A DNA stretch of 64,000 nt, from assembly GCF_004366715.1 (NCBI RefSeq), contig NZ_SOQZ01000003.1, positions 253,001-317,000 on the forward strand. The letters are read 5' to 3'. Shown one piece after another: positions 20,212 to 55,029 of the stretch (positions are counted from its first letter, which is position 1; the number at the start of each line of letters is the position of its first letter). The stretch is from Meridianimaribacter flavus (GTDB lineage Bacteria; Bacteroidota; Bacteroidia; Flavobacteriales; Flavobacteriaceae). Both the position numbers and the translations under genes were made by a program. Below the pieces are notes generated by a model. The model did not search any database. It was not told the origin of the DNA and saw only the letters and a list, made by a program, of their open reading frames with translations.

Positions 20212-23200
20212 TTACTGCTTAATAATTTTAAAGCTTTCAGTTTTATTATTGCTTGCTAGCTTTAGTATGTATATTCCTGTTGGTAATGATGTTACATCTA
20301 TAATTGATGTTTTAACGCTATTTGATTTTAGAACTTCTTGTCCTTGTACATTGTATATACTATAGTCAAACTGCTGATTCTCTGTTTTTATGTTTAGTAT
20401 ATTACTTACTGGGTTAGGATAGATTTTAAAATCTATAGTTGAAACATCACTAATAGTTAAAGTCGATTGAAGTTCATAAGCGCCAATATCTATAGTGCCG
20501 TCAAATAGCCTTGGATTACCTGCTAAATCTAGATTAATATCTGGTATAGTGGCATTTGTTCCTGCGTTGACTAGAGGAGAAGATGTTGTTAATGCGTAAT
20601 CACCGTTTAAATTAGGAGCTGTGTTGGCTAGTATAGGATTAACAAATGCTGGATTTGTAGTCATCATCAAGTTTCCAACTCCAGTATTGTTAAAGTCTCC
20701 GTTTAATGAGTAACTTATATCGCAGCTTGTACATTGTCCCATATTAGGAAAAGCAAACCCAGCATCATTTCCACTTACTACTGAATTTGTCATAGTAAAG
20801 GACTCTCCTATATTTCCACTAGTAGGCACGTAAGCAAATACTCCACCATTGTAATTGTCTGCATAATTTCCTGAAACAGTAATGTTTGTAACAGTAGTAG
20901 TTGATGTAAATAAATACATGCCACCACCTTGACTTATTGCTTTGTTACCAGAGAATAGAGCGTTTTCTATGGTTGTGTTTGCATAGCGAGTTTCAAGAGC
21001 ACCACCTGTTGCAGCAGAATTGTTTTGAAACGTTGTGTTAAAAATTACTAATTCACTCATTGTGATATCTGCTAGTACTTCGCCTGATTGAGGTTGTACT
21101 CCGTGGAATGCAATAGCTCCTCCAATGCTAGCTGTGTTACTAGTAAATTTACAATTAGAAATAATCATGTTTGCTTCAGAAGCATATATAGCACCACCAG
21201 ATGTTTGTTCAAGACCACCAGTTGTTGGAACATTTCCGTTTTGAAAATGAATGCCATCTATAATAGTACCTAAACTTTGAATATTGAAGATTCTAGAATT
21301 ATTATTGCTACTAATTATTGTGTTTTCTATACCGTTTCCAAAGAATGTAAGTGGTTTGTCTATAAATATTTCACCTGAAGTTAAAATAATGCTACTTCCA
21401 TTAAGTGCTGGATCAAAAGAGATTGTTGTGCCATCGCAAGCATTTTCAATAACATGACGTAAAGACCCTAGACCACTATCTGCCGTAGATGTAACCATAA
21501 TAGAATTTTCGCAAGCTATGAAAAATTCATAAGCTCCTAAATCTACAGTTGAATTGTATATTCTTGGGTTTCCATCTAAATCTTCAGTTAAGTCTATGAA
21601 ATTGTTGTCGCCAGCATCTATGGCAGGAGAGCTATCGGTTAATTTGTAACCATCAACATATATAGGGTCTGCGTTTTCAATGTTATTTCCACCATCATTT
21701 ACATTTGGAGGAATGCTACCATTGTTTCCAGAAGTAATATTAAAGAATAAACAATGTGATACAATAGGAGAGTTCGCTCCTCCATTATTTATATTTCCGT
21801 TGCTACCACTGTTATTAGTGAATATACTATTTGTAGCCGTAACGTTACCAGCAAATATATGAATACCTCCACCGTGAGTGGCAATATTGTTTGCTATAGT
21901 ACAATTTATTGTTACAAGACTTCCACTTTCGGCTGAAATTGCGCCACCACCAGCAGTTGCAATGTTGTCAAAGAACAAGCTATTGGAAATAGTAGTTGTA
22001 GTTGAACTGTTACCAAAGTTTATTATAGCACCACCAACACCATTATTAATTCCGTTTCCGTAGGCGGTATTGTTTTTAAAGATGCAGTTGTTTATGTTTA
22101 TGTTTTCAGCATTTCTAATATAAATACCAGCTCCAGCACGACCAATGGCTACTTGCGAGTTATCAGAATCATCATCAGCATAACCATTTTCAATAATAAA
22201 TCCATCTAATGTAACATTGTTTTCGTTTAAGGTTATAATAGTATGTGAATCTCCAGAATTTGACGTGTTGTCATTGTTTAAATCTCCTGAAAGAATAGTT
22301 AAATTTTCTGACCAGTTACGTTCACTTGCTGTAATTTCGGTGCCATTAAAGCCTCCAAGAACGGTTATATTATTAGGAATGATAAAACTGTCGGTTTCAA
22401 GTAAACCTGGTTTGTATGTGCCAGATGCTACCCATATTTCATTAGCGCATATAGCATTGTTGATAGCATCTTGTAGGCTAGTGAATGCGTTGCTCCAATT
22501 GCTTCCATCATTTGCGCCAGTTGCATTAGCATTTACATAAAGAACATTAGGTGAGCCAATACAAGAATCAAACTCATAAGCTCCTCTGTCAATATTAGAG
22601 CCAATGATACGCTCATTACCATCTAAATCAAATGTTGAATTGTTATGTGTTGAAAGCCCTGAATCTATTGCACTTGAGGTTTCCGAAACTCTAAAATTTT
22701 TATTTAAAGCATCAATAAACAAAGGGTCGTTAGATGAATTTGAGTTTGTGTTGCTGTAAATGTTTTTTATAATGCAATGTGTTGTGTTTGAGTTGGATGC
22801 GTAAATTTGCGTGTTTAATTGCGTATTGTCTGGGTCATTAGACCTTGTGTTGTCCCAAAGAATTGAATTGTGAATGTTTACTGTTGCGGTTGTTCCGTTC
22901 CATACTCTAATGCCAGCTCCAGCTTCAGAATCGCCATCATTTTCTGTTAATGTGCAGTTAACAATATTATAGGTTGTTACACCATTATCTAATATGCTTA
23001 TTCCGCCACCTGTTCCTATATTACCATAAAATAAACTATTTGTGATGTTTACAACACCATCATCATTAGCGTTTTGTCTTGACCAAATAGCACCTCCATT
23101 TAGATTTGCTGAGTTGTCATTAAAGATGCAGTTTTTAATATTTACATTTAAAGTGGCTTCACCAGAGAATGTATTTATAGTTATCGCTCCGCCACTACCA

Positions 23201-25392
23201 TTATTGCCACTAGAAGTGCCTGTTGAGATGTTGTCTTTAAATGTGCAGTATTCAAGGTTTATACCTACAGTGCTTCCTGTTACACCATCTAAAAACAATG
23301 CTCCAGCAGAGGTTAAAGATTGGTTGTTTTTAAATATACAGTTTTTTACAGTTGGAGTAGAGGTGTCACTACCTGATGTTGTTCTGTTTAACCAAGCACC
23401 ACCTCTTTGTCCATATGTTTCTATTTTTACAGCATTTCCTTTTTCAATGGTAAACCCATCTAATAGCATATTGTTGCCTACGTTAGTTGTTTTAATGATA
23501 TTATAACTGTTGTCATTAATTTGATTTGGAGTGTTAATGTCGCCACTTAAAACAGTTATGTTATTTTCCCAATCTCTTTGATTAGAGTTGGTTTCAGTAC
23601 CGCTAAAGCCGCCAAGTATTATTATGTCTTCAGGAAGATGAAATGATTCATCGCGATTACCTGCTATTTGGTTGTTGCCATCATCTGGATAATAGGTTCC
23701 TTGAGCTACCCAAACTTCTTGTAATGTAATTCCACAACTTGAGTTGTACATATCCAAAGCGTTTTGTAATGACGAAAATGCATAAGCCCAAGAGCTGCCA
23801 TCTTGATAAGTGCTTGTATTGTTTGCGTTGACATATATTACATTATTGTTGAATGTTGGACATTCAGACGAGCCATTTTCATACGGTCCTAAATCTATGT
23901 TACTACCATTTAATCTTAAATTATTGTCTAAATCCCTTAAACTGTTATTGTAAGAGTTATTTCCTGCTCCAATTGCGGGAGATGTATTTTGTAATCTGTA
24001 ATCTTGATTAGGAACATCCTCAAAAAGCGGATTAGAATCTAAAATATTTGTTCCGTTACTATAACCACCTTGTATAATATTTGTGTCTGCAATACCATTA
24101 AAGCTTTGAATATTGGTTGTGTTATTCCAAATAATAGAATTGTATAAAGTATTTCCATTGGTAGCATTTAAGCGTAAGGCAGTGCTATTGTTTGAAAATG
24201 AAGAATTGGAAATATTAATTATTCCATTTCCATTACTTAAAGCAATAGAAGCATTGTCGTTAAAAAGAGTGTTTGTTATTGTTAGTGTTTTATTATCGTT
24301 TAAATTTATAATATAAGGTATGCTATTGTTAGAGAATTGACACTTGTCAATAAGGATGTTACCATATGGATTAATTACAGAACCTAAACTGTGTACAGAT
24401 GAATTACCAGAAAAAGTACTTTTTGATATTGTTGCGTCTGTACCATTGAAATAAATAGCAGAACCACTTATACCATTATTTGCTGTATGTGAATTGTTAG
24501 TAAAAGAGCAATTTTCTATAACAGGTGGTAAACTACTGCTTCCACTAGTATAAATAGCTCCACCACCTGAACCTGAAGAGTTACCATCAAAAATTGAATT
24601 TTTAATAACTGTGCCTTCTGTTGTCCCCATATAAAAGGCGCCTCCTCTACTTGCTGTATTTGATGAAAACGTACAATTATCAATAATAGGACCTCCATAG
24701 TCCCAGTTTAAGGTGTTGTTATAAATAGCACCACCTTCGTTTGCCATGTTTGTTTCAAAAGTACAGTCTCTTATTATTAAGCTTCCTGGTTCAATTTCTA
24801 CAATATATATAGCGCCACCTTTGGCGTTGTAAGAAGTAGTGTTTATTGCTTTATTATTTATGAACTTGCAATTTGAAATAACGGTAGCGTTTGCACCTCG
24901 TGCAAACATGCCTCCGCCCTCATTACTTCCATAACCACCTGAATTATCTGCATTGCTATTTGTAATTGTAAAACCGTCTATAACATTGTAGTCGCCAGAT
25001 GTTCTAAAAATGGTATAGACAAAGTTTTGGTCATTATTGTTTTGTTGTATATCACCATTTAGAATTGTTGGGTAGAGTTCTAGGTTTCTAGAGTTATTAC
25101 TTGCGTTATAACCACCTAAAAGAGTAATGTAGTTTTTGTTCAACAAAAAATAACTAGAACGATCGTTGTCGGTTTGGGAAGCACCTAAATCCGGATAGTA
25201 ATTCCCTTGAGCAACATGTATTTCATCATAACTACTGGCTGCATTTAAAGCGTCTGTTAAGTGTTGATATGCATTTGCCCAAGATGTGCCATCGTTGTTT
25301 CCACCAGAAACATTAACATTAACATAAATAGTGTTTTGAGCTATAGGTGTTAATGAAAATAGTAGAAATAGTAATTGTAGTAGTTTTTTCAT
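20212..25392 (-). CDS. Giant multi-module parallel beta-helix surface protein with T9SS sorting domain
   Basis: The 1726-residue protein starts with a signal peptide (MKKLLQLLFLLFSLTPIAQ) and ends with a T9SS type A sorting domain (about 1652-1726: FKIYPNPVSN, then TSLPTGIYILKL). Between them lie four tandem modules starting near residues 19, 514, 944 and 1292. Modules 1-3 open with I/LYVN...DG-S/T-W-A/S-NA and WVA.GTYYP. All contain parallel beta-helix repeats of the polymorphic outer membrane protein type (FxNN, GGAI/GGG) and close with a choice-of-anchor-Q-like ending such as LDGNPRIYNSTVDLGAYEF. It is probably exported through the outer membrane and cell-surface attached or released, as an adhesin or polysaccharide-binding protein (inference). 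It is transcribed from a promoter with a TACGTAG inverted repeat. Confidence 0.92.
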   Translation of the reverse strand: MKKLLQLLFLLFSLTPIAQNTIYVNVNVSGGNNDGTSWANAYQHLTDALNAASSYDEIHVAQGNYYPDLGASQTDNDRSSYFLLNKNYITLLGGYNASNNSRNLELYPTILNGDIQQNNNDQNFVYTIFRTSGDYNVIDGFTITNSNADNSGGYGSNEGGGMFARGANATVISNCKFINNKAINTTSYNAKGGAIYIVEIEPGSLIIRDCTFETNMANEGGAIYNNTLNWDYGGPIIDNCTFSSNTASRGGAFYMGTTEGTVIKNSIFDGNSSGSGGGAIYTSGSSSLPPVIENCSFTNNSHTANNGISGSAIYFNGTDATISKSTFSGNSSVHSLGSVINPYGNILIDKCQFSNNSIPYIINLNDNKTLTITNTLFNDNASIALSNGNGIINISNSSFSNNSTALRLNATNGNTLYNSIIWNNTTNIQSFNGIADTNIIQGGYSNGTNILDSNPLFEDVPNQDYRLQNTSPAIGAGNNSYNNSLRDLDNNLRLNGSNIDLGPYENGSSECPTFNNNVIYVNANNTSTYQDGSSWAYAFSSLQNALDMYNSSCGITLQEVWVAQGTYYPDDGNNQIAGNRDESFHLPEDIIILGGFSGTETNSNQRDWENNITVLSGDINTPNQINDNSYNIIKTTNVGNNMLLDGFTIEKGNAVKIETYGQRGGAWLNRTTSGSDTSTPTVKNCIFKNNQSLTSAGALFLDGVTGSTVGINLEYCTFKDNISTGTSSGNNGSGGAITINTFSGEATLNVNIKNCIFNDNSANLNGGAIWSRQNANDDGVVNITNSLFYGNIGTGGGISILDNGVTTYNIVNCTLTENDGDSEAGAGIRVWNGTTATVNIHNSILWDNTRSNDPDNTQLNTQIYASNSNTTHCIIKNIYSNTNSNSSNDPLFIDALNKNFRVSETSSAIDSGLSTHNNSTFDLDGNERIIGSNIDRGAYEFDSCIGSPNVLYVNANATGANDGSNWSNAFTSLQDAINNAICANEIWVASGTYKPGLLETDSFIIPNNITVLGGFNGTEITASERNWSENLTILSGDLNNDNTSNSGDSHTIITLNENNVTLDGFIIENGYADDDSDNSQVAIGRAGAGIYIRNAENININNCIFKNNTAYGNGINNGVGGAIINFGNSSTTTTISNSLFFDNIATAGGGAISAESGSLVTINCTIANNIATHGGGIHIFAGNVTATNSIFTNNSGSNGNINNGGANSPIVSHCLFFNITSGNNGSIPPNVNDGGNNIENADPIYVDGYKLTDSSPAIDAGDNNFIDLTEDLDGNPRIYNSTVDLGAYEFFIACENSIMVTSTADSGLGSLRHVIENACDGTTISFDPALNGSSIILTSGEIFIDKPLTFFGNGIENTIISSNNNSRIFNIQSLGTIIDGIHFQNGNVPTTGGLEQTSGGAIYASEANMIISNCKFTSNTASIGGAIAFHGVQPQSGEVLADITMSELVIFNTTFQNNSAATGGALETRYANTTIENALFSGNKAISQGGGMYLFTSTTTVTNITVSGNYADNYNGGVFAYVPTSGNIGESFTMTNSVVSGNDAGFAFPNMGQCTSCDISYSLNGDFNNTGVGNLMMTTNPAFVNPILANTAPNLNGDYALTTSSPLVNAGTNATIPDINLDLAGNPRLFDGTIDIGAYELQSTLTISDVSTIDFKIYPNPVSNILNIKTENQQFDYSIYNVQGQEVLKSNSVKTSIIDVTSLPTGIYILKLASNNKTESFKIIKQ

Positions 25393-25419
25393 AACTATAT
25401 AGGTTGTTGATTCGATATG

Positions 25420-25427
25420 CTAAATTA
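25420..25427 (-). promoter_or_regulatory. -7 element of the beta-helix gene promoter
   Basis: It reads TAATTTAG on the minus strand, 7 of 8 matches to TAnnTTTG. It lies 27 nt upstream of the start codon and exactly 23 nt downstream of the box at 25451-25466. Confidence 0.65.
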
Positions 25428-25450
25428 TACGAGTGTAGAACTCTATTCAA

Positions 25451-25466
25451 TACGTAGGTCTACGTA
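25451..25466. promoter_or_regulatory. Response-regulator box 1 (TACGTAG-GT-CTACGTA)
   Basis: A perfect 7-2-7 inverted repeat centred about 31 nt upstream of the -7 element, where the -33 element would be expected next to it. Two other boxes at 26960-26975 and 27509-27524 keep the same 23-nt distance to their -7 elements. The nearby NarL/FixJ-class response regulator is the obvious candidate binder; the assignment is inferred. Confidence 0.75.
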
Positions 25467-25486
25467 GTGTAATTTGAATTAAAAAA

Positions 25487-25539
25487 GAAAGAGGCCAAAC
25501 GTTTTTAAATTTTGACCTCTCAAAGGATTGATTAATAGC
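25487..25539 (-). repeat. 3' element copy C: TTGATTAATAGC motif (plus-strand reading) plus terminator hairpin
   Basis: The motif at 25528-25539 begins 5 nt after the stop of the 293-residue gene. The hairpin AGAGGTCAAA / TTTGGCCTCT (arms 25520-25511 and 25499-25490, minus strand) differs from copies A and B in its outer pairs yet stays paired. The central wobble is again G.U in the minus-strand transcript. Confidence 0.75.
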
Positions 25540-25544
25540 TTAGT

Positions 25545-26426
25545 TTAATTTTGTTCTGCAGGCTTATAAGTACCACAAAGGCAAGGGTAGTTTAGCCCAT
25601 TTATAACTTCTTGTTCTACATTAAAGAATCGAGGTATTGTTAAACCTCCACCGTTTCCTATACTTGTGTAGTTAAAAGTAATGGTACCTCTAACTCCTCT
25701 AGATTCATCTGCAGCGTTTTCTGAAAAGTTTTGTGAATTATTAAAACCAGAATCATTAAAAGAATCTCCTTTAGTAACAGAAGAGGTGATAACCCAAAAA
25801 GGGACGTTGTCATAATTTGAATTAGATGAATAATTACCAATAACAATAGCTTGTGTTATTTGTTCGGCAGTAAATGCTCTTGCATACGGTTCTTCAGGAT
25901 AGCTATCCTTGCACATTTCATTTGCTGCTTGCCAACCAGTTTTACCATTGTAACTAAACTTTCCATCATCAGATGGGTAGCTTCTACCTAAAATATAAGG
26001 TTCCATTAGGACAGGATTGGTTACTGTAGATGCTGTCTTAGCATGTAGCGCATATGGTACACTTAATAACTGACTTGTAGCAATAATAGTATAGTTTGTG
26101 CCTCCATCGGGATCTGTTTCGGTTTTAATAAAATAAGTGTTAGATGACCAATCAATAGTACTTAAGTCTCCAGATACTACTGATCCACTACCTATTTCTA
26201 TGCTTATCAATCCGTTTTGGTTTGTTACTGGTGCATGTGTTTCTGTATAAACCGCTGTACCTGTAGAGTTTCCTTGCAAAATGCTTATTTGCATACCAAC
26301 GCTAGCATTGCTAACAAGTTCGTTAGATGCATTTCTTATAACTGCTTGATAGCTCATTTTTTCAGGGCTTTGAGCATATGACAAAAAATAGCAAAACACA
26401 CATGCGATAAGGTATAGTTTTCTCAT
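25545..26426 (-). CDS. Secreted SYQAVIRN-type protein of unknown function
   Basis: A 293-residue protein with a signal peptide (MRKLYLIACVFCYFLSYAQS). It opens with the recurrent flavobacterial sequence EKMSYQAVIRNASNELVSN and VGMQISILQGNSTGTAVYTE, then LISIEIGSGSVVSGDLSTIDW and the segment LLSVPYALHAKTA. This beta-rich N-terminal domain is found in many Bacteroidota surface proteins, fused to variable C-terminal regions. Here the C-terminal ~150 residues (after YILGRSYPSDDGKFSYNGKT) are not recognisable, and there is no T9SS tail. It is the second gene of a two-gene unit, 4 nt after the T9SS-tail gene, and ends in the shared 3' element. The function is unknown. Confidence 0.8.
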   Translation of the reverse strand: MRKLYLIACVFCYFLSYAQSPEKMSYQAVIRNASNELVSNASVGMQISILQGNSTGTAVYTETHAPVTNQNGLISIEIGSGSVVSGDLSTIDWSSNTYFIKTETDPDGGTNYTIIATSQLLSVPYALHAKTASTVTNPVLMEPYILGRSYPSDDGKFSYNGKTGWQAANEMCKDSYPEEPYARAFTAEQITQAIVIGNYSSNSNYDNVPFWVITSSVTKGDSFNDSGFNNSQNFSENAADESRGVRGTITFNYTSIGNGGGLTIPRFFNVEQEVINGLNYPCLCGTYKPAEQN

Positions 26427-26430
26427 AATA

Positions 26431-26901
26431 TTAGTTTTTAATGATTTTGAATGTTTTTATAAGATTAGATTGATGATATATGTTTAAAAAGTAGGTGGCC
26501 GAAGGTTTCTGCTTCATATTAATAATTGTGCTATTAGAGACTATTTTCTCTATGCTAATTGTTTCACCTAAGAGGTTGACAAGTCTATAAGATAAATCAG
26601 GATTATCGTTTTCTAACTTAAGTTGTAATGTATTGGTTGTAGGATTTGGAAAAGCAACTATTTTTAATGATATAGCACTTTCTTGTGTTCCTAATGTTTC
26701 TGAAATTGAATACGACTGTTGTACACCTTGCTCAATACTTCCACTTGAAGACGTGCTATTGGTGTAGGCAATCTGTCCTATAGTATAACTTACACTACCT
26801 TGAGAGCTATTTGCTGTGTTACCATTGCTTACTGTAGCAGTTTGTGCAACTATTTTTGTATTAAAAAGCAAGACTATAACTATTAAAATAAGTTTTTTCA
26901 T
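26431..26901 (-). CDS. Small T9SS type A sorting domain protein
   Basis: The 156-residue product has a signal peptide (MKKLILIVIVLLFNTKIVAQ) and a short mature region with the phrase TATVSNGNTANSSQGSVSYT followed by IGQIAYTN and GSIEQGVQQSY. A T9SS type A C-terminal sorting domain follows from about residue 80 (AFPNPTTNTLQLKLEN and ATYFLNIYHQSNLIKTFKI). More than half of the protein is therefore sorting signal, leaving a small exported beta domain of unknown role. It forms an operon with the SYQAVIRN protein and is driven by the duplicated promoter cassette with box 2. This pairing recurs in flavobacteria as I recall, but I know of no assigned function. Confidence 0.85.
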   Translation of the reverse strand: MKKLILIVIVLLFNTKIVAQTATVSNGNTANSSQGSVSYTIGQIAYTNSTSSSGSIEQGVQQSYSISETLGTQESAISLKIVAFPNPTTNTLQLKLENDNPDLSYRLVNLLGETISIEKIVSNSTIINMKQKPSATYFLNIYHQSNLIKTFKIIKN

Positions 26902-26928
26902 AACTATATAGGTTATTGATTCTATATG

Positions 26929-26936
26929 CTAAATTA
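26929..26936 (-). promoter_or_regulatory. -7 element of the T9SS-tail/SYQAVIRN operon promoter
   Basis: TAATTTAG on the minus strand (7 of 8 to TAnnTTTG), 27 nt upstream of the start codon at 26901 and exactly 23 nt from box 2. Confidence 0.65.
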
Positions 26937-26955
26937 TACTAGTGTAGAGCTCTAT

Positions 26956-27393
26956 TCAATACGTAGGTCTACGTAGTGTAATTAGAATATTTTGATACTG
27001 AATAAAAGAAAGTCCAACGCTACGTTTAAACAGGTTTTCAATGTTTTTGGTATCGCATTGATAGCGTTTAGAAAGTTGTTTTAGTGATGTGTTTTCGTTT
27101 AAAAAGTGTAGGTGAAAAATAATACTATCTAATATTGAAGGTGTAAGATCTTTAAGTTTAGGTGTATTTAGTTGTGCTAAAAATTCATCAGAATTGGTAG
27201 CCTGTATAGTTATATTATTCTGAGTAAGATGATCTACATATGTTGGTCTGCATTTAACTACAAATTGAGAATGTTTTAATTGTAAAGGGTTTGCAAGTGG
27301 CTTATGATAGGTTGTGTTATTTTCTTCAGAATATAAAATGTAACTATATCCATCGGGTTGTAATAGATCATAGTCTTTATTGCTTATACTCAC
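26956..27393 (-). CDS. Truncated AraC-like protein (single HTH)
   Basis: A 145-residue protein. The N-terminal half (LLQPDGYSYILYSEENNT) resembles the start of the sensor domain of the AraC protein at 19270-20067 (STGYSYLVLVYGD). The C-terminal part ENTSLKQLSKRYQCDTKNIE then NLFKRSVGLSFIQYQNILI is the first HTH and linker of an AraC domain. The protein then stops at ITLRRPTY, so the second HTH, normally about 50 residues, is missing. These last codons coincide with the TACGTAG box of the next promoter, suggesting that a promoter cassette truncated an ancestral AraC gene or that the gene evolved to this short form. It may be a one-HTH regulator, a dominant-negative partner, or a decaying gene. 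Confidence 0.7.
   Translation of the reverse strand: MSISNKDYDLLQPDGYSYILYSEENNTTYHKPLANPLQLKHSQFVVKCRPTYVDHLTQNNITIQATNSDEFLAQLNTPKLKDLTPSILDSIIFHLHFLNENTSLKQLSKRYQCDTKNIENLFKRSVGLSFIQYQNILITLRRPTY
26960..26975. promoter_or_regulatory. Response-regulator box 2 (TACGTAG-GT-CTACGTA)
   Basis: A perfect inverted repeat identical to box 1, again exactly 23 nt upstream of a TAATTTAG -7 element. It overlaps the last codons of the truncated AraC-like gene (…LRRPTY), so coding and regulatory sequence are nested. Confidence 0.75.
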
Positions 27394-27477
27394 ATAAAAG
27401 ATATCTACAACCCAATAATTAATAGGTAAATAATATTTGTGCTTAGTGATAATAGTATGTTACAATTTTATAAGTTT

Positions 27478-27485
27478 CAAAATTA
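27478..27485 (-). promoter_or_regulatory. -7 element of the truncated AraC-like gene promoter
   Basis: TAATTTTG on the minus strand is a full match to TAnnTTTG. It is exactly 23 nt from box 3 and about 85 nt upstream of the start codon at 27393. Confidence 0.65.
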
Positions 27486-27508
27486 TAACATGTTGTTTGG
27501 TAGTAAAA

Positions 27509-27524
27509 TACGTAGGCTTACGTA
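27509..27524. promoter_or_regulatory. Response-regulator box 3 (TACGTAG-GC-TTACGTA)
   Basis: An inverted repeat with one mismatch, overlapping the final codons and stop of the response regulator gene (AAT ACG TAA). Spacing to the -7 element is 23 nt, as in boxes 1 and 2, although the sequence between box and -7 is unrelated to the other two. The conservation is therefore functional rather than due to recent duplication. Confidence 0.7.
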
Positions 27525-28150
27525 TTAAAAAGGTCTGGGTTTTGTTTTAACCAGACAAAAAGTGCATTTTGGTTGGTGGTATCTATCTCTAGCTTTTTTA
27601 TAATGTTACTTCGGTGTTTTTCAACAGTACGTTTAGAGATAAATAGCTCTTCGGCAATCTGTGTGCTGTTGAGGTTTTTTTCTAAGTATTTTAATATTTT
27701 TAATTCGGTAGCAGTTAAAGTTTCAATAGATGTATTAGTGCCGCTATCAAAATGAACTGTGCTTTTTAGTTTCTTTCCTATGTACGTGTTGTTATTATTA
27801 ATACTATCTAAGCATAGCTCTAACTCTTCTAAAGCACTATCTTTTGTAATGTATCCATGTATAGTTTTTCCCACTTCGTTTAGTAACGATTCTTGCTTAT
27901 GAAGTGTTAAAATAATAACTTTAGTATTTATCTTATTGCGTTGTATTTCTTGTGCGACTTCGAGCCCATTTAGTTTAGGCATGTCAAAATCCAGTATAGC
28001 AATATCAGGAATTTGTTTTGAAATTTTGTTGTACGCAGTATTACCGTCGGTTGCAGTATCAATAACTTTAAACCACTTTTTTTCTAAAAATTCCTTTGTT
28101 CCATTAAGTAGTAATGGGTGGTCATCTGCAAGAATGATAGTTGTTGGCAT
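27518..28150 (-). CDS. LuxR/FixJ-class response regulator
   Basis: A 210-residue two-component regulator. The receiver domain begins TTIILADDHPLLLNG and carries the acidic pair D9/D10, phosphoacceptor D54 in DIAILDFDMPKLNG, the conserved switch threonine in VIILTLHKQ and the lysine in YITKDSA. The C-terminal GerE/LuxR HTH is LTATELKILKYLEKNLNSTQ with IAEELFISKRTVEKHRSNII. It follows the histidine kinase gene by 3 nt, so the pair is one operon. The dyad TACGTAG...CTACGTA at three neighbouring promoters is a plausible target, since this DNA-binding class binds inverted repeats as dimers. Box 3 overlaps its own stop codon. Confidence 0.92.
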   Translation of the reverse strand: MPTTIILADDHPLLLNGTKEFLEKKWFKVIDTATDGNTAYNKISKQIPDIAILDFDMPKLNGLEVAQEIQRNKINTKVIILTLHKQESLLNEVGKTIHGYITKDSALEELELCLDSINNNNTYIGKKLKSTVHFDSGTNTSIETLTATELKILKYLEKNLNSTQIAEELFISKRTVEKHRSNIIKKLEIDTTNQNALFVWLKQNPDLFNT

Positions 28151-28153
28151 TGT

Positions 28154-30178
28154 TTAACTTTTAGGAACTTTTATTTGTATCGTTGTGCCTTTTCCTTTAA
28201 CAGAATCAATACTTAACTGAGCACCGATTATTTGGGCACGCTCTTTTAGAGTTTTTAATCCAAGGCTATCTATAATTTGACTGTTTTCAGACACATCAAA
28301 CCCAATACCATTATCTTTTATTTGAAATAATACAGAATCGTTTAGGTTTTCAACCATGATGTTACAAGCTTTTGCTTTAGAGTGTTTTTCAACATTGTTT
28401 AAGCATTCTTGCAGCATTCTAAAAACAAAAATTTCTTTGTCTTTAGAAATTTCTAACTTTTCGATTTCAATAACTTCAGAATAGAAGATGTCAGAGTTTT
28501 TCTGAAAATTCTCAACCGTATTTTTAATTGAAGCTAATAAACCTAATTTTTCAAACTGAAAAGGATGAAGACTTTGAGATATATGTCTCACTTCATCAAT
28601 AGTGTCGTCTATAATTTTGGTGTCTTGGTTTTGCTTATCGTTGAGCAAAACTTTATTTTTTATAAGCAACAGACTTTGGCCCACACTATCGTGAAGTTCG
28701 CTAGAAATGCGTTTGCGTTCGGTTTCTACATTTCTAATTAAATCTTGTGCAAAGGTTTTTTGTAGTTGTGCTTTTTTTTGTGAAAATCTTCGAGAACGCC
28801 ATAAAACGATAATACTAAACAGTGCTATTAATGCTAAAATGCTAAACCATAAGGTTTGTTTTTTGCGTTTGTTTTGTTCATCTAGAAGTGCAATTTCACT
28901 ATTTTGTTCTTCTATCTTTTTGTCTCGTTTTGCAGTTTCATAAAGCGTTTGGTAATAGGCTAGTGCTTTGGTTTTTTGTACAGACTGTATCGAGTCTTCA
29001 ATTTTTTTTGAAGCTTTATAAAACGAAAGTGCTTCATCAGGTCTGTTTAATTTTTCGTAGACTTCAGATAAGAATTTCTGAGCCTTTCTTTTTCCTTTAA
29101 TGTCGTTACTTGTAGAGACAATGTTTAAGTGCTCTATACCAAGTGTCTTTGCCTTTTCGTAGTCTTTTTCAGCAAAAGCTAGTTTTTTTATGGCTTTATA
29201 ATATCTGGCTTTATGGATGCCTTCTGTATTTTGTTGGTCTTTTTCAACTTCTTTTAAATAGAATTTTGCCTTTTCTAAACTATCATTTTCGGCATAAGCA
29301 ATAGTGAGCGCATTCAATAAAATAGGGTTGAAGTAATTGAAATGATTCGATTTTTTACAAACCACCATAGCTTTGTGAAGATTCTCAATACGTTGGGTTT
29401 CTAAACCTAGTTTTTTTAAATCGTTTGCTTCGTTAACATACAGTGAAATAAGCTGTCCGTAACCTTTAATTTTGGTGGCTAATTTTATAGCTTCTATGCG
29501 CTCATTTTGGGCTTCTTCTATAAAACCATTAACACTATACAATATGGCTAAGGTGTTTTTAGCAGCTATGATATTGAAAGTGTCTTTTTCTTGAATAAAA
29601 ATTTCTGAAGCTTGTTTTAGAGTTTGCGAAGCCAACGCAAATTTTCCTTCATCAGAATAGGCATAACCTTTATACAGAATAGCAAATCCTTTAACCCGAT
29701 TATCATTAGCTTTTTCGGCATAAGTAATAGCTTTGTCGTAGTGAGACATTGCAGAGTCTACTTGCTTGGTAAAGTAATAACTATCGCCAGAGTCTATATA
29801 CAAACTAGCTAAATTTCTAGCACTAATATTATTTTTTAAGGTTTTAAAATAGGTATTGAAAATAGCAATACCAGTTTTAGGTTTGCCTAAAAAATTATTG
29901 TGATAATTAATAAGGTTTGTAGTATTGTAAGCCGCAATATTAAAAGAGTCTAGCTTTATAGCGAGATCTATAGTAGAACGTGCAATAGAGTCGTAAGGAA
30001 AATTAGATTTATCTCTAACAACCGATGTTAGGCTATCTAAAAGAAATAACTTTTTGGCATCGTCCTTTTCAGATTGTATTTCAGTTTTTAGTTGATCTAC
30101 GAGTGGTTTTAAATCTGAATCTTGAGCATTTACAGATAAAAAAAATAGTAGAGAAAATACGAGTGAAAGTTGTTTCAT
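28154..30178 (-). CDS. TPR-containing sensor histidine kinase (HisKA_3 type)
   Basis: A 674-residue membrane kinase. A signal peptide (MKQLSLVFSLLFFLSVNAQ) precedes a periplasmic region of TPR repeats (about residues 90-390; SHYDKAITYAEKANDNR and ALSFYKASKKIEDS are examples), then a coiled coil. One membrane helix is at about 440-458 (SILALIALFSIIVLW). The cytoplasmic HisKA_3 box ERKRISSELHDSVGQSLLLI contains the phospho-accepting histidine (near 495), and the HATPase domain has NVEKHSKA, IKDNGIGFDV and GKGTTIQIKV. TPR kinases of this kind are common in Bacteroidota; their ligands are mostly unknown. It is the first gene of the kinase-regulator operon, which leads directly into the box-regulated surface-protein genes. 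Confidence 0.92.
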   Translation of the reverse strand: MKQLSLVFSLLFFLSVNAQDSDLKPLVDQLKTEIQSEKDDAKKLFLLDSLTSVVRDKSNFPYDSIARSTIDLAIKLDSFNIAAYNTTNLINYHNNFLGKPKTGIAIFNTYFKTLKNNISARNLASLYIDSGDSYYFTKQVDSAMSHYDKAITYAEKANDNRVKGFAILYKGYAYSDEGKFALASQTLKQASEIFIQEKDTFNIIAAKNTLAILYSVNGFIEEAQNERIEAIKLATKIKGYGQLISLYVNEANDLKKLGLETQRIENLHKAMVVCKKSNHFNYFNPILLNALTIAYAENDSLEKAKFYLKEVEKDQQNTEGIHKARYYKAIKKLAFAEKDYEKAKTLGIEHLNIVSTSNDIKGKRKAQKFLSEVYEKLNRPDEALSFYKASKKIEDSIQSVQKTKALAYYQTLYETAKRDKKIEEQNSEIALLDEQNKRKKQTLWFSILALIALFSIIVLWRSRRFSQKKAQLQKTFAQDLIRNVETERKRISSELHDSVGQSLLLIKNKVLLNDKQNQDTKIIDDTIDEVRHISQSLHPFQFEKLGLLASIKNTVENFQKNSDIFYSEVIEIEKLEISKDKEIFVFRMLQECLNNVEKHSKAKACNIMVENLNDSVLFQIKDNGIGFDVSENSQIIDSLGLKTLKERAQIIGAQLSIDSVKGKGTTIQIKVPKS

Positions 30179-53697: not shown

Positions 53698-55029
53698 ATG
53701 AACGGAAGAAAAAAAGTAGCATTTTACACTTTGGGTTGTAAGCTTAATTTTTCTGAAACTTCTACTATAGCAAGAGGTTTTAAGGATGAAGGCTTTGATC
53801 GTGTTGATTTTTCTGAAACAGCAGATATATATGTTATCAATACATGTTCTGTTACCGAAAATGCTGATAAACGATTTAAAACTATAGTTAAACAAGCTCA
53901 AAAATCTAATCCAGAAGCTTTTGTTGCAGCAGTAGGTTGTTATGCGCAATTAAAACCTCAGGAGTTGGCAGATGTTGATGGTGTTGATCTTGTGCTTGGT
54001 GCTACCGAAAAATTCAAAATTACCGACTACATTAATGACCTGAGCAAAAATGACTTTGGAGAAGTGCATTCTTGCGATATTGACGATGCCGATTTTTATG
54101 TTGGTTCCTATTCTATAGGTGATAGAACAAGAGCATTTTTAAAAGTACAAGATGGCTGCGACTATAAATGTACTTACTGTACAATACCATTAGCTAGAGG
54201 TATTTCGCGGAGCGATACCATGGATAATGTTATTAAAAATGCCAAAGAAATCTCTGAAAAAGACATTAAAGAAATTGTACTTACTGGTGTTAACATTGGC
54301 GATTATGGTAAGGGCGAATTTGGTAACAAGCGTCATGAACATACGTTTTTAGATTTAGTAACCGAACTTGATAAGGTAGAAGGTATTGAGCGTTTACGTA
54401 TTTCTTCAATAGAACCTAACCTTTTAAAGAATGAAACTATTGAGTTGGTTTCGCAGTCTAGAGCCTTTGTGCCTCATTTTCATATTCCATTACAAAGTGG
54501 AAGTAACGATATTCTAAAAAAAATGAAGCGTCGTTATATGCGAGAACTTTATGTGGATAGAGTCGCCAAAATACGAGAAATTATGCCTAATGCTTGTATA
54601 GGTGTTGATGTTATTGTTGGTTTTCCTGGTGAAACTGATGAGCGTTTTTTAGAAACGTATAATTTTCTGTCAGATTTAGATATCTCGTATCTTCATGTGT
54701 TTACCTATTCTGAAAGAGATAATACCGAAGCTGCAAAAATGGATGGCGTTGTTCCTAAAAATGTAAGGTCAAAGCGTAGTAAAATGTTACGAGGTTTATC
54801 GGTTAAAAAACGTAGAGCATTTTATGAAAGCCAAATAGGAACACAACGACAAGTATTGTTTGAAAGCGAAAATAAAGAAGGTTACATTCATGGGTTTACC
54901 GAAAACTACGTAAAAGTAAAATCGCCTTGGAATCCACATTTAGTAAATACGATTCACGATGTGGAGCTTACCAAAATTGATGACGATGGTATTGTACGTT
55001 TTGATTTGATAAATCAGGAAGCGGTTTAA
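53698..55029 (+). CDS. mtaB: tRNA t6A37 C2-methylthiotransferase
   Basis: A 443-residue radical-SAM methylthiotransferase that turns t6A into ms2t6A at tRNA position 37. The N-terminal UPF0004 domain begins RKKVAFYTLGCKLNFSETST and contains three cysteines for the second Fe-S cluster (LGCKLN, VINTCSV, AVGCYAQ). The radical SAM motif is CDYKCTYC (C154, C158, C161) in KVQDGCDYKCTYCTIPLARG. FHIPLQSGSNDILKKMKRRY and a TRAM-like C-terminus (ESENKEGYIHGFTENYVKVK) complete it. The start at 53698 is chosen because the longer frame covers the promoter. Divergent from the peptide-binding protein. Confidence 0.94.
   Translation: MNGRKKVAFYTLGCKLNFSETSTIARGFKDEGFDRVDFSETADIYVINTCSVTENADKRFKTIVKQAQKSNPEAFVAAVGCYAQLKPQELADVDGVDLVLGATEKFKITDYINDLSKNDFGEVHSCDIDDADFYVGSYSIGDRTRAFLKVQDGCDYKCTYCTIPLARGISRSDTMDNVIKNAKEISEKDIKEIVLTGVNIGDYGKGEFGNKRHEHTFLDLVTELDKVEGIERLRISSIEPNLLKNETIELVSQSRAFVPHFHIPLQSGSNDILKKMKRRYMRELYVDRVAKIREIMPNACIGVDVIVGFPGETDERFLETYNFLSDLDISYLHVFTYSERDNTEAAKMDGVVPKNVRSKRSKMLRGLSVKKRRAFYESQIGTQRQVLFESENKEGYIHGFTENYVKVKSPWNPHLVNTIHDVELTKIDDDGIVRFDLINQEAV

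Follow-up and report, generated by a model that had tools for sequence, protein, structure and literature searches.

A NarL-type response regulator with a palindromic box at the 3' end of its gene: a predicted surface-protein regulon in Meridianimaribacter flavus and its relatives

Introduction

In the NarX-NarL system of Escherichia coli, a regulator with a receiver (REC) and a GerE domain recognises 16-bp inverted repeats with TAC...GTA ends, which are built of two heptamers and a 2-bp gap, such as TACCCCTAAAGGGGTA (available portion of PMC4549865). FixJ, the regulator of the rhizobial FixLJ system, has a helix-turn-helix (HTH) of the same class, and one of its site classes obtained by systematic evolution of ligands by exponential enrichment (SELEX) is GTAMGTAG (available portion of PMC4999443). 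PorXY-SigP is described as two-component control connected with the type IX secretion system (T9SS). In GacA/UvrY with Rsm/Csr, a NarL-class regulator is combined with a palindromic box that precedes units for small RNAs. Here we describe a comparable arrangement in 64,000 nt of Meridianimaribacter flavus (GCF_004366715.1, NZ_SOQZ01000003.1, positions 253,001-317,000 of the forward strand), hereafter the window. The locus encodes a TPR-type histidine kinase and a NarL-class response regulator (RR), termed RR1, and contains three copies of the box TACGTAG-N2-CTACGTA. Judged from the sequences, this TPR-kinase/NarL-type system probably activates a self-contained surface-protein cassette via the 16-bp palindrome, and we put the probability of this reading at roughly 0.76.

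Results

Three boxes at the RR1 locus

A first-pass annotation of the window had reported the three boxes, two perfect and one with a single mismatch, each followed on the minus strand by 23 nt and a -7 element. Positions, mismatches and spacings were all verified:

28154..30178, minus strand: sensor histidine kinase, 674 aa, TPR + HisKA_3 + HATPase_c (Pfam TPR_12, HisKA_3 and HATPase_c above cut-off)
27518..28150, minus strand: RR1, NarL/FixJ-class response regulator, 210 aa (Pfam Response_reg 86.5 bits and GerE 52.7 bits, both above cut-off)
27509..27524, minus strand: box 1, TACGTAAGCCTACGTA (minus-strand reading), 1 mismatch; the RR1 stop codon (27518-27520) lies inside the box
27478..27485, minus strand: -7 element TAATTTTG, 23 bp past box 1
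26960..26975, minus strand: box 2, TACGTAGACCTACGTA (minus-strand reading), perfect match
26929..26936, minus strand: -7 element TAATTTAG, 23 bp past box 2
25451..25466, minus strand: box 3, TACGTAGACCTACGTA (minus-strand reading), perfect match, in a copy of the box-2 promoter
25420..25427, minus strand: -7 element TAATTTAG, 23 bp past box 3

The kinase gene adjoins that of RR1, and the HisKA_3 domain of its product scored 31.1 bits in Pfam. The best solved relatives of RR1 include EvgA and NarL. Residues D9, D10, D54, T82 and K103 of RR1 are invariant in an alignment of four RRs; this is the pattern of phosphorylation residues (two acidic residues, Asp, Thr/Ser and Lys). With two inverted heptamers, a 2-bp gap and TAC...GTA ends, the box has the 7-2-7 geometry of NarL operators, and binding itself is predicted. 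The resemblance to FixJ sites that the first-pass annotation had mentioned extends to the one SELEX class, but in its 16-bp geometry the box is more like the NarL 7-2-7 sites.

When up to three mismatches were allowed, four box matches were found in the window (the fourth at 54897, with three mismatches) versus 1.11 expected, and 3 of 100 shuffled sequences reached four. The promoters of boxes 2 and 3 (26960 and 25451) are near-identical copies of a single stretch, and therefore the window offers two independent instances of the arrangement. The box-1 promoter, for which no further sequence shared with the other two had been noted, has little in common with them beyond the box and the -7 element; the other two represent one duplication.

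In the whole genome of M. flavus, the pattern occurs with at most one mismatch solely at the three sites of the window, and with two mismatches at 10 further sites, versus 7 for the reversed control. The shorter pattern TACGTA-N4-TACGTA has eight exact sites, all within three clusters, namely the window locus and one cluster each on contigs C5 and C2; with up to one mismatch, 12 sites were found versus 6 for the reversed control. On C5, two boxes are located 3' of the gene for a paralogous NarL-class regulator, RR2, which is 43% identical to RR1. The nearer box begins a few bases past the RR2 stop codon, comparable to box 1, which overlaps that of RR1. The C2 cluster contains three boxes of the TACGTAACGTTACGTA kind, two of which have a -7-like element at the 23-nt distance (TATCTTGC and TATATTGC), whereas the third fits poorly there. 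Among the 13 GerE loci of this genome, only the two of the RR1/RR2 clade have a box (up to two mismatches) within about 3 kb; none was found in the ~3-kb stretches of the other 11.

The box is linked to the regulator across Flavobacteriaceae

The first-pass annotation had tied its reading to the co-occurrence of the box with relatives of the regulator, and this co-occurrence was found. Species genomes were scanned with a four-RR alignment, that is, with protein patterns alone, and the best 80 of 554 relatives were analyzed. In 70 of these 80 RR loci a box with up to two mismatches (32 exact) begins between -25 and +400 from the RR stop codon. In 13 control windows of 425 bp at other offsets, a box was present in 0-1 of 76-80 loci per window, and the adjacent +400 window contained one in 11/80 loci. 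Of 179 permuted palindromes near the RR stop codons, the best was found in 16/80 loci, with a median of 2. Variation of the gap between the TACGTA halves from 0 to 10 gave a clear peak at 4 (70/80 loci), with a runner-up of 23. With RR1 alone as the query in 100 genomes, TACGTAN4TACGTATT was present in 32 of the 54 genomes with an RR match (1e-30) versus 8 of the 46 without (Fisher p 3e-5, uncorrected for relatedness or genome size). Of 102 boxes, 43 were at most 1 kb away from an RR match.

The box subtype follows the RR clade. Loci L062-L081 were assigned to RR1 and L082-L141 to RR2 by number; in the tree, a supported RR1 group of 23 rows contained the RR of the window, and L082 and L085 also fell inside it. 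GG.. or ..CC among the four bases at the centre, a mark picked after the counts had been seen, was present in 30/33 RR1-clade boxes versus 3/77 RR2-clade boxes (30/34 versus 3/76 when L082 and L085 are moved to RR1 as in the tree). The same division exists within the M. flavus genome, with GGTC/GGCT at the RR1 locus and ACGT/ACAT at the paralogue. GR.. had also been considered as the RR1 mark and was dropped because RR2 boxes fit it too. Furthermore, a box letter covaries with a recognition-helix residue (Y/H at ISxRTVEKH with an inner G: 22/28 versus 1/44). We did not count this co-evolution as proof because the tree contains just two changes of this residue.

The distance between box and promoter is fixed

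A family-wide search for the box followed by N18-30 and TAnnTTTG gave 38 matches in 26/199 genomes, versus one for the reversed control; two of the 38 come from one sequence that is present on two contigs. Although 13 spacings were allowed, 27 of the 38 (counted from the listing) had a spacing of 23. When 110 boxes near RRs were aligned by the box alone, nAnnTTT[A/G] was present at offset 23 in 83 cases and at any other offset in at most 4; the stricter TAnnTTT[AG] was present at offset 23 in 52/110. In 16 genomes that had been picked as box-bearing, some of which are also behind the 80 loci, 64 of 68 matches were at 23 with 22-24 allowed (counted from the listing), and the control gave 0.

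The flavobacterial -7 box lies at -12 to -5 according to the available portion of PMC9723704; together with the 23-bp spacing, this places the palindrome at about -51 to -36, adjoining the -33 TTG. For NarL, 7-2-7 sites are given at -40 to -49 (napF) and -38 to -47 (yeaR) in the portion of PMC4549865 at hand. The arrangement, with a -7 element TAnnTTTG and the box at a fixed place beside -33, is that expected of a class II activated sigma-A promoter of Bacteroidota. In 23 loci an ATG is located 3-5 nt past the -7 element, namely for 6 of 7 genes of stand-alone HTH proteins and for 17 micropeptide genes (both described below). This lends support to the assignment of the promoters, and the transcripts are predicted to be leaderless; the other two of the 25 such matches resemble chance open reading frames (ORFs). 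In the RR2 clade, the first T of the -7 element is often missing, as in GAAATTTA. A sigma-70 promoter scan, which is uninformative for this phylum, found 13 promoters versus 14.1 in shuffled sequences.

Two further groups of box promoters were observed. On contigs C16, C36 and C43 of genome G214 (L142-L144), near-identical box promoters (TACGTAGGAGTACGTATTCTTAATTG...TACTTTTG) are repeated before varied genes, a pattern that suggests amplification or mobility of the promoter. Another family of small membrane-protein-like products, of 60-68 aa, has a box promoter and begins 85-91 nt past the -7 element (L036:1227-1409, L043:1209-1415, L052:1229-1411).

The RR1 cassette recurs with changing cargo

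The genes around the boxes of the window are the following:

26956..27393, minus strand: 145-aa protein with a weakly AraC-like C-terminal HTH; the 3' end of the gene runs through box 2
26431..26901, minus strand: 156-aa protein with a T9SS sorting tail (Por_Secre_tail above cut-off); ATG 27 nt past the -7 element
25545..26426, minus strand: 293-aa "SYQAVIRN" protein (ORF, no Pfam match)
20212..25392, minus strand: giant right-handed beta-helix protein, 1726 aa, with a T9SS sorting tail (Beta_helix and Por_Secre_tail above cut-off)

The SYQAVIRN gene presumably shares a transcript with the 156-aa T9SS-tail gene. Homologues of the giant protein stand behind boxes in L055, L068, L076 and L078.

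As read from the sequences, kinase, RR and box form a cassette that is conserved in relatives among the Flavobacteriaceae, and its cargo changes or is missing. A TPR-type kinase homologue is encoded upstream of the RR in all 20 RR1-clade loci, and the box is present in 18 of them. In 10 of the 20, as in the window, the RR stop codon lies inside the box. The order of the elements recurs. Between the first and the second box, seven loci (L071, L072, L074-L078) encode a stand-alone GerE-like (LuxR-type HTH) protein, and GerE was confirmed by Pfam for all three that were scanned (L072, L076, L077). In L071, L072 and L076-L078 these genes also terminate in a box-borne stop codon, as if the 3' end of the RR gene had been duplicated. 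In the genome of M. flavus the 145-aa protein occupies this place, and five loci (L062-L065, L067) have a relative of it between the first and the second box, four of 137-152 aa and a 68-aa piece in L064.

Behind the last box, 7/20 RR1-clade loci (L068, L069, L072, L074-L076, L078; two run off the fetched stretch) have an ORF of at least 766 aa with a signal-like N terminus, 19-29 nt past the -7 element. Among the five of these that were scanned, T9SS tails scored above the Pfam cut-off in L068, L072, L074 and L076 and below it in L078. Proteins with a tail-collar domain were found in L070, L073 and L077, and a 267-aa ORF in L071. PurL is encoded upstream in 8/20 loci and an AMP-ligase-like gene in 5/20, and thus the cassette keeps its chromosomal place in the nearest relatives of the window.

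The first-pass annotation had proposed a compact, self-contained regulon for surface-protein display. Compactness and self-containment agree with the counts: the RR1-type box (up to one mismatch) occurs in M. flavus only at the window locus, and in 15 of the 20 RR1-clade genomes, which together have 62 exact boxes, 19 of the 23 with the GG../..CC mark are in the RR1 locus, versus 0 of the 39 without it. A 20th marked box lies about 270 bp past the L069 stretch (G206, C4:275053); this third RR1-type box is close to where the giant gene should end, recalling box 3. Surface-protein display agrees with the giant secreted proteins behind the last box in 7/20 loci, but not with the seven loci in which no ORF of at least 60 aa begins within 260 nt of that box. 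A regulon restricted to T9SS substrates was rejected for the family because boxes elsewhere precede mixed genes and are frequently followed by no ORF; nor is the box T9SS-specific, because at the paralogous RR it stands before RNA units and micropeptide genes.

The 145-aa gene had been described as a truncated AraC-like gene. In view of its four relatives of 137-152 aa, it is not truncated, and it is only weakly AraC-like. Its product had no Pfam match, and its structural model (mean predicted local distance difference test score, pLDDT, 84) contained one HTH-sized helical end. The best Foldseek matches of this model were Rns/ToxT, with E-values of 0.013-0.05 and TM-scores of 0.3-0.4; AraC C-terminal domains also matched weakly. 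Membership in the AraC family, which has a domain with two HTHs, was rejected on the missing Pfam match, the single HTH-sized end and the weakness of the fold matches.

RR2 loci contain RNA units or micropeptide genes

In the 60 RR2 loci, an aspartyl-protease-like gene is present upstream in 54 and a kinase homologue in 34; the linkage of a retropepsin-like aspartyl protease gene to RR2 regulators was seen among L041 and L083-L140. Behind 44 of 77 RR2-clade boxes (25 loci within L083-L139) a unit starting with GCTATTAA was found. Such RNA units start GCTATTAATTAGTTCTTAGGGAGAATTA-like, contain a terminator-like stem that shows covariation, and are often in tandem. They were present in 25/26 kinase-less RR2 loci versus 0/34 kinase-bearing loci. 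Alignment of 32 of the 44 units gave a common stem of 11 pairs, 10 of which had compensatory changes. A covariance model (E up to 0.01, a rough threshold) found units in 16/16 chosen genomes, some distant from RR2; in the genome of M. flavus it found two, both at RR2 (E 7.7e-6 and 3.6e-5). These two box-led units lie downstream of RR2 at C5:138500-139180 (L017:9500-10180), and each is followed by a small ORF, read by eye, for a single hydrophobic peptide of 33-34 aa. A Bizionia genome (L129) has seven exact boxes plus one imperfect box in a row. An Rfam search of five loci gave a tRNA as the sole match above the gathering score. A match to STnc370 overlapping one C2 box was sub-threshold (34.1 of 54 bits) and was taken as chance.

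Half of the kinase-bearing RR2 loci (17/34: L090, L092, L094, L097, L104, L106, L112, L122, L125, L126, L130-L133, L136-L138) encode a predicted leaderless peptide of 43-48 aa that contains a single hydrophobic stretch. The ATG of these micropeptide genes is 4 nt past the -7 element of the box promoter, and several peptides end LLNxxNYFVS-like. The one that was scanned, that of L092, had no Pfam match.

Discussion

The features of the locus suggest the following course of regulation. The TPR histidine kinase would phosphorylate the neighbouring RR1, and an RR1 dimer would bind the 7-2-7 palindrome. From its position adjoining the -33 TTG, RR1 would recruit RNA polymerase as a class II activator and could thus drive three transcripts of the locus, those of the 145-aa AraC-like gene, of the T9SS-tail/SYQAVIRN pair and of the giant beta-helix protein, the T9SS-tailed products presumably being displayed at the surface. 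A stand-alone HTH protein between boxes might latch the switch. Such a role is possible because the isolated output domain of NarL binds 7-2-7 DNA and fully activates napF (available portion of PMC4549865).

Several results weigh against this reading of the locus. The 80 RR loci are kin, and their counts are uncorrected for phylogeny; the limit of two mismatches was chosen after inspection of the data, and the alignment used for the scan (A2, four RRs) included the RRs of L041 and L055, which had initially come to notice via the box and may have introduced a bias. No box with up to two mismatches was found in 10/80 loci (2/20 RR1 and 8/60 RR2, by numbering). In the test with RR1 alone, 22 of the 54 genomes with a match have no exact box. 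The independent-pairs test of the recognition-helix residue, with its two changes on the tree, gave no information. Lastly, in 7/20 RR1-clade loci (L062-L067, L080) no ORF of at least 60 aa begins within 260 nt of the last box; the cargo there appears to be lost or unrecognised.

The eight of 46 genomes that carry the box and lack an RR match could also mean that the box belongs to another regulator and is kept at the locus by linkage. However, the subtype of the box tracks the RR clade, both within the M. flavus genome and across loci, and the other GerE loci of this genome have no box within about 3 kb, so that we regard this explanation as improbable. It is unlikely, if less so, that RR1 binds the box as a repressor, or that its effect switches between repression and activation with its state. 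NarL acts in both ways, and its output domain alone is a constitutive repressor of frdA, but the NarL repression site is at -4/+6 (available portion of PMC4549865), whereas the box abuts the -33 TTG from about -51 to -36. In addition, -7 elements without the first T, as often found in the RR2 clade, are expected of activator-dependent promoters.

The explanation to which we give the least credence is that the palindrome functions chiefly as an RNA hairpin or as a terminator that ends the RR gene. It can be folded as RNA (-6.3 kcal/mol, z -2.25 for the box 1 region), and a T run follows it in some RR2 loci. Yet permuted palindromes would fold equally well, and the best of the 179 was found in only 16/80 loci versus 70/80 for the box; the regions of boxes 2 and 3 fold barely better than shuffled sequences (z -0.93 and -1.39), and a terminator scan of 25300-28200 did not report the palindrome. 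Moreover, the distance from the palindrome to the -7 element is fixed, and boxes also precede genes distant from a regulator. A terminator as its main role was rejected. Activation by RR1 through the box thus remains our preferred reading.

More tentatively, and with rather less than even confidence, we propose a common history. An old flavobacterial RR family would carry its operator at its own 3' end, in one branch inside the stop codon, so that duplication of the gene end would copy the DNA-binding domain together with the operator. In the RR1 branch this might have given mostly leaderless stand-alone HTH proteins that lie between two boxes and could act as a latch on the switch; the giant surface proteins after them would be exchangeable. 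The RR2 branch would have leaderless membrane micropeptides where the kinase is present and tandem RNA units of ~80 nt where it is absent, with a Gac/Rsm-like output. To our knowledge, no such output is known in this phylum.

Flavobacteria possess many two-component systems and giant T9SS adhesins, and operators and targets have seldom been assigned. For this system, the sequences of many named genera allow regulator, 16-bp operator, promoter geometry and targets to be read off, which makes the control of T9SS cargo experimentally testable. The rule of box, 23 bp and -7 element can also be used to look for the paralogous regulon of micropeptides and RNAs in other genomes. Among the matches listed in a search of the open literature, titles and the starts of abstracts contained no description of the box, which is weak evidence as subscription journals are mostly outside such a search. 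The combination of box, RR and promoter would be a new form of NarL-type control, and its constituent parts are of known kinds.

Compared with FixLJ, the box differs from the 16-bp fixK site TAAGTAATTTCCCTTA (available portion of PMC4999443), and sensor and targets are others. PorXY-SigP is reported to concern the genes of the secretion machinery, whereas the locus described here has a local cargo cassette. RR2 is similar to GacA/UvrY, but its RNA units are directly 3' of the regulator gene and often in tandem, with micropeptide genes near; PorX, for its part, is not known to be a LuxR-class regulator. The likeness to NarX-NarL lies in the regulator and the operator geometry. Unlike NarL, for which the heptamer is TACCCCT, RR1 is associated with TACGTAG, with a TPR-type kinase and with a local target cassette, and the box precedes a flavobacterial -7/-33 promoter and extends over the stop codon of the regulator gene itself.

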